From an uncultured Pelagibacteraceae bacterium (GTDB taxonomy: Bacteria > Pseudomonadota > Alphaproteobacteria > Pelagibacterales > Pelagibacteraceae), in NCBI GenBank assembly GCA_902514665.1, contig CABXRS010000001.1, positions 1-64,000 on the forward strand: a stretch of 64,000 nucleotides of DNA, in the 5' to 3' direction. The notes beneath the pieces were generated by a model. The model was given only the letters and a program-made list of their open reading frames with translations. It made no database searches and had not been told where the DNA came from. This document shows, piece after piece, positions 19,632 through 21,227 of this stretch (positions within the stretch are counted from its first letter, which is position 1; each line of letters opens with the position of its first letter). A program made the position numbers and the translations under genes.

Positions 19632-20195
19632 GTGAGTCCTCAGATTTTAATAATATACAAGTTTAAACCATTATATCATATTCTTGATGAACTTGATTTG
19701 AATTTAAATTTTAACATCATTTTTGCAGATAATAAGGATTTATTAAATTATACAGAAAAAGAGCATATTAATTATTTGATCGTGTCCAATAAAAAAAATT
19801 TGGATATTGGTAATCAATTTGTTTTAGATAATTTACCAATTAACATTTCTAAATTATTAGAAAAAATAAATATCGAATTCTTAAAACTACAATTTAATAG
19901 TCAATCTGAAGTTAAAGTAAGTAACTACATGATCAACCTTAATTCAAGAGAGATGTTTACAAAAAATACCAAGCTTAAGCTGACAGAAAAAGAAATTAAT
20001 ACAATTATTTATTTATCTAAATTAAACAAACCAGTTAGTATTGTTGAATTACAAGAAAAGGTTTGGAGCTATCAATCTAATATAGAAACTCATACCGTTG
20101 AGACACATATTTATCGATTAAGAAAGAAAATTATAGAAACTTTTAATGATAACGAATTTATAATGAGTAAAAAAAATGGTTATCAAATTAAATAA
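19632..20195 (+). CDS. OmpR-type winged-helix response regulator with degenerate receiver
   Basis: LTEKEINTIIYLSKLNKPVSIVELQEKVW...VETHIYRLRKKI; start (GTG 19632 or TTG 19614) uncertain. Confidence 0.8.
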   Translation: MSPQILIIYKFKPLYHILDELDLNLNFNIIFADNKDLLNYTEKEHINYLIVSNKKNLDIGNQFVLDNLPINISKLLEKINIEFLKLQFNSQSEVKVSNYMINLNSREMFTKNTKLKLTEKEINTIIYLSKLNKPVSIVELQEKVWSYQSNIETHTVETHIYRLRKKIIETFNDNEFIMSKKNGYQIK

Positions 20196-20205
20196 GAAAA
20201 ATCCA

Positions 20206-20295
20206 ATGGCTAAAGATTTGTATACTAAAAAGTACAAGCCAAAAATAGTTAAGCCTAAAAAAGGAAAGGGTAGTTTTAAACGAAAGAAAACTTAA
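20206..20295 (+). CDS. 29-aa basic protein, ArfA-like tail (candidate alternative ribosome-rescue factor)
   Basis: MAKDLYTKKYKPKIVKPKKGKGSFKRKKT*; KKGKGS[YF]xRK is the hallmark of the ArfA C-terminal tail; 10 nt after the upstream stop. Confidence 0.6.
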   Translation: MAKDLYTKKYKPKIVKPKKGKGSFKRKKT

Positions 20296-20297
20296 TT

Positions 20298-21227
20298 TTA
20301 GAGCCTTGCTCCAATTTGTTGGATTATTTTTGATGACATTTCTGTTCCTTTCTCAAGACATTCTTTTGTAGATAATTTATTTATGTACCCATGCAAAAAT
20401 CCAGCAGCAAAGAGATCGCCAGCACCTGTAAGGTCTACAATTTTTAAATTTTTATGAACATTACTTTCAATAACTTCATCTCCATTAATTGCTATCGCTC
20501 CTTTTTCACCTCTAGTTACAACCACTAATTTATTAAGTTGTTTTGAAAAGTTTATGACTTCTTCAAAATTTTTAGCTTCAATTAATGAATTCATCTCTTG
20601 CTCGTTTGCAAAAGTTATATCAAGTTTGTTTTTAACTAAGTTTAAAAAATGAGGCTTGTGTCTATCCACACAAAACAGATCAGAGAGAGACATAGCAACC
20701 TTTTTTGCACTGCTCATTGCTTTATCAAAGGCTTTCTTAGGTTCTCCTTCATCCCATAAGTACCCTTCCAAAAATATTATTTCACTATTTTTCACTACAT
20801 CAGAATTAACATCTTTTTCATTAATTTTTCCTGCTGTTCCTAAAAAAGTACACATTGTTCTCTCTGAATCTGGTGTTATTAAAATCAAACATGTTCCAGT
20901 TGGCAATACCTCTTTCTTTTTTGAATAAAAGTATTCTACATTTTCTTTTTTAAGTCCATCCTCATAGTGGCTTCCAAATCCGTCATCTGAAATTTTTCCT
21001 ATGAAACCAACTTTATTTCCAAGTTGAGATATGCCCACTATTGAGTTTGCAACAGATCCTCCTGAAATAGTTTTTTCAATTTTAAGATTTCTTAATAAAT
21101 TTTGAAATTCATTCTCATTGAAAAATAATTTCATTGTGCTCTTTGTGAGATTATTTTGCTGAATAAATTTGTCATCTACTTTACAAATGACATCCACTAT
21201 TGCATTTCCTATTCCTAAAATTTTCAT
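20298..21227 (-). CDS. PfkB family kinase, probable adenosine kinase
   Basis: GIGNAIVDVI, GGSVANSIVGIS, DLTGAGDLFAAGFLHG. Confidence 0.9.
   Translation of the reverse strand: MKILGIGNAIVDVICKVDDKFIQQNNLTKSTMKLFFNENEFQNLLRNLKIEKTISGGSVANSIVGISQLGNKVGFIGKISDDGFGSHYEDGLKKENVEYFYSKKKEVLPTGTCLILITPDSERTMCTFLGTAGKINEKDVNSDVVKNSEIIFLEGYLWDEGEPKKAFDKAMSSAKKVAMSLSDLFCVDRHKPHFLNLVKNKLDITFANEQEMNSLIEAKNFEEVINFSKQLNKLVVVTRGEKGAIAINGDEVIESNVHKNLKIVDLTGAGDLFAAGFLHGYINKLSTKECLEKGTEMSSKIIQQIGARL

Follow-up and report, generated by a model that had tools for sequence, protein, structure and literature searches.

The DNA analysed here, referred to as the window, is a stretch of 64,000 nucleotides (nt) from an uncultured Pelagibacteraceae bacterium (assembly GCA_902514665.1, contig CABXRS010000001.1, positions 1 to 64,000). 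The genome to which it belongs comprises 970,700 bases in 43 contigs, is about 81% complete and has Pelagibacteraceae (SAR11) as its nearest named relatives. Between a response-regulator gene and a convergent kinase gene, the window carries a very short gene, here called mini-arfA, whose product is a homolog of the ribosome-rescue factor ArfA. An earlier note on this DNA had drawn attention to an open reading frame (ORF) of 29 amino acids at this site, and it is present as described: MAKDLYTKKYKPKIVKPKKGKGSFKRKKT followed by a stop codon is encoded at 20206-20295 on the plus strand, 10 nt past the stop of the regulator gene and 2 nt short of the stop of the kinase gene. The coding sequence itself starts further upstream. 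The features of the locus are the following.

20176 to 20295, plus strand: coding sequence of mini-arfA from the corrected start, 39 amino acids, with a TAA stop at 20293-20295 (supported by the conserved start, frame and codons of 78 SAR11 homologs and by the Pfam family PF03889)
20206 to 20295, plus strand: the 29-amino-acid ORF as first reported; its ATG is internal and corresponds to Ile16 of E. coli ArfA, and an ATG stands at that codon in 23 of the 78 homologs
20176 to 20232, plus strand: codons 1-19, matching residues 6-24 of E. coli ArfA within its N-terminal minidomain; the invariant Asn9 corresponds to Asn14 (gapless alignment; roles from PMC5378476)
20233 to 20247, plus strand: codons 20-24 (YKPKI), aligned with ArfA 25-29, which in E. 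coli prolongs the beta-sheet of RF2 domain 2 as an added strand (PMC5378476)
20251 to 20292, plus strand: codons 26-39 (KPKKGKGSFKRKKT), equivalent by alignment to ArfA 31-44, the basic mRNA-channel tail (PMC5378476)
19614 to 20195, plus strand: response-regulator-like gene with an OmpR-type C-terminal DNA-binding region
20298 to 21227, minus strand: PfkB-type sugar/nucleoside kinase, convergent with mini-arfA; the median stop-to-stop gap in relatives is 1 nt

A start at 20206 was rejected on the basis of the codons found in the SAR11 homologs. At the position of this ATG, 55 of the 78 homologs have a different codon (mainly ATA, ATT, TTT or CTT), while the K-K-N-P just upstream of it is conserved and the Asn of this motif, two codons ahead of the ATG, is found in 78 of 78. 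An ATG, GTG or TTG lies 24-29 codons ahead of the KGKG motif in 77 of the 78, and its equivalent in the window is the ATG at 20176. The protein is therefore MVIKLNKKNPMAKDLYTKKYKPKIVKPKKGKGSFKRKKT, 39 amino acids long; its relatives measure 34-40 amino acids. With this start, the description of the product as little more than a tail no longer holds, since the protein also covers the equivalent of E. coli residues 6-31, in which lie the counterparts of the invariant Asn14 and of the strand (25-29) pairing with RF2. The first 20 nt of the gene are shared with the end of the regulator gene and, because the regulator stop falls within the mini-arfA reading frame, the two genes may be translationally coupled.

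Mini-arfA is a real gene under strong purifying selection. Homologs were found in 79 of 101 genomes of the same genus. Over 31 codons of the 78 homologs, the mean non-synonymous difference (pN) was 0.08 and the mean synonymous difference (pS) 0.65, with a pN/pS of 0.12; since the homologs were gathered by protein similarity, pN is biased somewhat downward, and independent support comes from synonymous saturation and from synteny. The ratio was 0.06 in the tail half and 0.22 upstream of it. Variation at third codon positions (0.38) exceeded that at the other two (0.09 and 0.08) about four-fold. The setting is conserved as well: the kinase gene lies downstream on the opposite strand in 77 of the 78 loci, at a distance of 31 nt or less in 69 of them, and a response regulator was recognised upstream in 65.

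The ArfA family (PF03889) is the only Pfam family matched by the window protein. The 29-amino-acid ORF matched it with E=8.3e-6 and 25.6 bits, and the 39-amino-acid protein with 26.0 bits, which marginally reaches the cut-off of 25.5. The family was also matched by all 26 members of the SAR11 alignment (E<=1; best E=1.8e-7). When a profile of these 26 sequences was compared with all chains of the PDB, the solved E. coli ArfA was recovered at E=0.0024 in a gapless alignment running from Asn14 to Lys42, and no other chain appeared at E<=10. The full 39-amino-acid protein aligned without gaps to residues 6-44 of E. coli ArfA, whose sequence was verified against PDB 5h5u; the offset is 5, window residue n corresponding to E. 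coli residue n+5. Six residues (N14, K34, G35, G37, S38 and R41) are invariant in an alignment of 11 sequences from SAR11, phages, other Alphaproteobacteria and E. coli. The predicted channel tail, K-K-G-K-G-S-F-K-R, is nearly invariant in the SAR11 homologs, with occasional exchanges of K and R.

The 59 SAR11 genomes compared for their rescue systems were the window's own and 58 others with a completeness of at least 90%. Mini-arfA was present in 47, transfer-messenger RNA (tmRNA, of the alpha type) in 57 and SmpB in 57. None of the 59 genomes had more than two RF-1-domain proteins, RF1 and RF2, and therefore none has ArfB, which is the usual alphaproteobacterial backup. In genomes that lack mini-arfA the site is cleanly empty and holds no decayed copy, the stops of the regulator and kinase genes meeting or standing a few tens of nt apart at most; in one genome (G033) a different neighbour is found there. 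On a tree of the kinase, 11 of the 12 genomes lacking the gene fell into one deep group and one elsewhere, so that 5 changes were counted as against 11.2 in shuffles, a distribution consistent with vertical inheritance and losses. In a wider set of 289 genomes of Alphaproteobacteria, seven had a match to Pfam ArfA: the window's, one from another genus of its family and five others, some with proteins intermediate in sequence (for example RTNPIARALRTPTFRQRKIRPKKGRGSYSR). An nhmmer survey of 15,259 genomes reported ArfA in 0 of 2,376 Alphaproteobacteria (PMC11633108), and reviews describe it as limited to certain beta- and gamma-proteobacteria (PMC8012679, PMC6881298). We found no paper on a cellular mini-arfA of SAR11 among the open-access papers searched.

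We consider it likely that the window gene encodes a very short ArfA that acts with RF2 behind tmRNA and SmpB. As far as sequence comparison can indicate, the ArfA-like backup to tmRNA proposed earlier is well supported by the Pfam match, the gapless profile alignment, the conservation and the genomic context, in which tmRNA and SmpB are present and ArfB is absent. In the proposed mechanism, the basic KPKKGKGSFKRKK tail would be laid in the empty mRNA channel of ribosomes that have stalled on reaching the 3' end of a broken mRNA, the YKPKI middle would give RF2 domain 2 an extra strand, and the N-terminal part would help RF2 to open, its GGQ loop then releasing the stalled peptide. Mini-ArfA would in this way back up tmRNA/SmpB in a lineage without ArfB. 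In E. coli, ArfA residues 25-29 extend the beta-sheet of RF2 domain 2 and residues 31-48 lie in the mRNA tunnel (PMC5378476); window residues 20-24 correspond to the former and residues 26-39 to ArfA 31-44. The 25-29 segment is kept, and the Leu at position 20 is invariant in the SAR11 homologs.

The positions of RF2 that contact ArfA are Trp319, Phe217, residue 198 and the strand 213-217 (PMC5378476). Aligned to the solved E. coli RF2, the RF2 encoded in the window's genome retains Trp319 (in IGWG), Phe217 and the RHTSF strand at 213-217, and has Ile in place of Val198. Trp319 is general to RF2, and its retention therefore permits ArfA action without proving it. As a separate observation, the prfB gene of this genome (L252, about 100-125) retains the known programmed +1 frameshift site, AAGGAG TAT CTT TGA.

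Several findings weigh against an RF2-dependent ArfA. The PF03889 score is barely at the cut-off (26.0 against 25.5 bits) and falls below it in whole-genome mode (23.0). The RF2-binding patch formed in E. coli by Leu19, Leu24 and Phe25 retains just the aromatic residue at 25, the window having Asp, Lys and Tyr at these positions. Pro23 of E. coli is Lys in the window, and so is position 18, which is Ala in E. coli and where a Thr inactivates E. coli ArfA. The C-terminus, at the equivalent of residue 44, falls three residues short of the smallest E. coli truncation that is active; forms of E. coli ArfA that fail to reach Asn47 are reported to be inactive (PMC5378476), a limit that was measured in E. 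coli and does not define the family. Some mini-ArfA relatives extend a few residues past the residue-44 equivalent, and the first residues of ArfA are absent from the 39-amino-acid form. Finally, mini-arfA is absent from 12 of the 59 good SAR11 genomes, and the gene is therefore dispensable.

With the residues equivalent to Leu19, Pro23 and Leu24 changed, RF2 binding may differ, as the earlier note suspected. There is room for an ArfA descendant that does not recruit RF2, and that would be a channel plug or tail-only factor, either marking empty channels or acting with another factor such as RF1. Such a protein would account for the loss of the patch positions Leu19, Leu24 and Pro23 in SAR11 and for the tail being the most constrained part of the gene (0.06, as against 0.22 upstream). 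However, purifying selection still acts on the upstream half, with its invariant Asn and Leu and its aromatic residue at 25; this half can be aligned to ArfA, and RF2 retains the ArfA contacts. Moreover, positions 19 and 24 are altered also in the phage and other alphaproteobacterial forms, which may reflect an alternative packing and not a loss. We regard a function without RF2 as unlikely, and recruitment of RF2 remains our preferred reading.

Relatives of mini-ArfA are also encoded by at least 166 viral stretches in IMG/VR, 80 of which were retained. The neighbouring genes confirm that the contexts are those of phages. In one of these (L050), the gene directly follows that of the clamp loader and lies upstream of dioxygenase-like genes and RegA, a region in which the relatives HTVC008M and Mosig have no such gene; elsewhere its neighbours are GroES and an endolysin (L058), an endolysin (L053), the terminase and major head protein (L082), or a UvsW-like helicase and a late sigma factor (L083). 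The presence of phage mini-arfA in at least five different neighbourhoods suggests repeated acquisition. Profile searches of the T4-like pelagiphages HTVC008M and Mosig, which are relatives of L050, and of a marine virus record found no ArfA. Phage Mosig has an annotated tmRNA of its own (MT647606.1, 111467-111805; L270, 5656-5994), and SAR11 phages may be able to bring ribosome rescue by either route, tmRNA or ArfA. The phage side is partly known already: gp30 of pelagiphage HTVC027P has been named ArfA and is reported to be highly expressed both early and late, at 3 h and at 12-15 h after infection (PMC12753301). This protein (GenBank MN698241) was found by the SAR11 profile with E=1.2e-13. 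A tblastn search of the phage collection with the 39-amino-acid protein gave no match, probably because the lysine-rich query is masked by low-complexity filtering; with profile searches the protein is found in such records.

Given these viral copies, mini-arfA might have come from phages as a selfish or accessory gene that phage exchange maintains in SAR11, and not be the cell's own rescue backup. The number of IMG/VR stretches, the several unrelated phage contexts, the near-SAR11 sequence of some viral copies (L052-L055) and the clean absence of the gene from some SAR11 genomes would all agree with such an origin. Against it stand the single conserved chromosomal location, with the kinase downstream in 77 of 78 loci, and the clustering of the absences on the kinase tree, as expected of vertical inheritance and loss. 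We judge this explanation improbable; it concerns the origin of the gene, moreover, and is compatible with a rescue function.

Since the protein is short and lysine-rich, weak profile scores are to be expected, and it could in principle be a small basic protein of the ribosome, or a nucleic-acid binder, with no kinship to ArfA, its KGKGS[FY]xRK likeness having arisen by convergence or composition. However, when the 39-amino-acid form was shuffled or reversed, none of the ten copies matched ArfA, the gapless alignment reaches beyond the motif, and intermediate sequences from a phage (L084, 39.7 bits) and an alphaproteobacterium (L033, 32.8 bits) connect the SAR11 proteins to E. coli ArfA. A better family was not found either: the NCBIfam search returned no family and the PHROG search weak, unnamed matches only. 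A look-alike family, DUF7230 (PF23876), was rejected as the identity of the gene, having no match to the window protein at E<=10 and none in the window's genome. ArfB was rejected too, as the 39-amino-acid protein has no GGQ motif and none of the 59 genomes has a third RF-1-domain protein. An unrelated protein is thus very unlikely. That the ORF arose by chance can be dismissed: chance ORFs of 29 amino acids are common in the window, but this one is set apart by its conservation, codon pattern, synteny and Pfam match, the analysis of the 78 homologs having already refuted the notion. DUF7230 proteins themselves (RRNPVAKKLRTKRYRPKVVADKTKYSRKKKHK), seen in L041 (minus strand, about 1449-1623) and L043 (about 1392-1620), are ArfA-like without the KGKG block. 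This family, on which we found no paper that names it, occurs in 3 of the 289 Alphaproteobacteria and may be a sister family of ArfA.

Synthesis from a non-stop mRNA by means of a hairpin is a regulatory trait, separate from rescue activity. No in-gene hairpin of the RNase III or terminator type was found in 80 SAR11 mini-arfA genes, where the best local structure over 45 nt reached -9.4 kcal/mol at its lowest, the median being -4.0. As a positive control, the strong hairpin near codon 51 of E. coli arfA was recovered, with -24.3 kcal/mol for its best structure over 45 nt. In SAR11, a proper stop codon closes the reading frame ahead of the region in which E. coli has the hairpin and the hydrophobic tail. 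With neither of these elements, mini-ArfA is probably not made from non-stop mRNA; active protein would be made directly, and probably without control by tmRNA.

Comparison with known rescue factors places mini-ArfA closest to E. coli ArfA (YhdL; PF03889, RF2-dependent), with which it shares the gapless match over 6-44, the six invariant residues, the basic tail, the aromatic residue at 25 and a partner RF2 with the contact residues. Unlike the E. coli protein of 72 amino acids, the SAR11 form (34-40) stops at the residue-44 equivalent, has no hydrophobic C-terminal tail and no in-gene hairpin, is altered at L19, P23 and L24, and occurs in Alphaproteobacteria. HTVC027P gp30 has a common core with it, NP[IV]AK[DE]xxTxKYKxxIxKPKKG[KR]GSFKR, and differs in being phage-borne, in its 58 amino acids with an extra N-terminal stretch and in keeping Pro23. 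ArfB (YaeJ) would have the same role as a backup to tmRNA; unlike mini-ArfA it has its own GGQ domain. BrfA of Bacillus subtilis may be alike in mode, in that it is small and basic, occupies the mRNA channel and brings in RF2 (PMC6881298), but it is considered unrelated in sequence, has two N-terminal helices and is made from non-stop mRNA. Rescue factors that depend on a release factor may act in a species-specific way (PMC6881298).

More tentatively, and with somewhat less than even confidence, we suggest that a minimal, unregulated ArfA of about 35 amino acids, working without the E. coli hydrophobic patch or the last tail residues, is common to SAR11 and to the phages around it. It would replace ArfB as the backup in SAR11 and, in its phage copies, keep host ribosomes free during infection. 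The presence of mini-ArfA in most genomes of a very abundant group of ocean bacteria corrects the map of ArfA as restricted to beta- and gamma-proteobacteria, and could explain how a lineage without ArfB has a second rescue route. Its length would show how short a factor that recruits RF2 can naturally be, which is directly testable, and the abundance of viral copies points to ribosome rescue being important during phage infection in the sea.

Two minor observations concern the 3' end of the gene. E. coli arfA is likewise convergent with its downstream neighbour, overlapping the end of mscL (L286, 2525-3150), much as the end of SAR11 arfA touches or overlaps that of the convergent kinase gene (window, 20176-21227). 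Antisense effects are known for arfA/mscL; the shared arrangement is probably a coincidence. An Rfam search of the window gave no match. A small stem-loop, TTGGAGCAAGGCTCTAA, lies at 20298-20314, across the kinase stop and just past that of mini-arfA, and has a terminator-like score on the minus strand.
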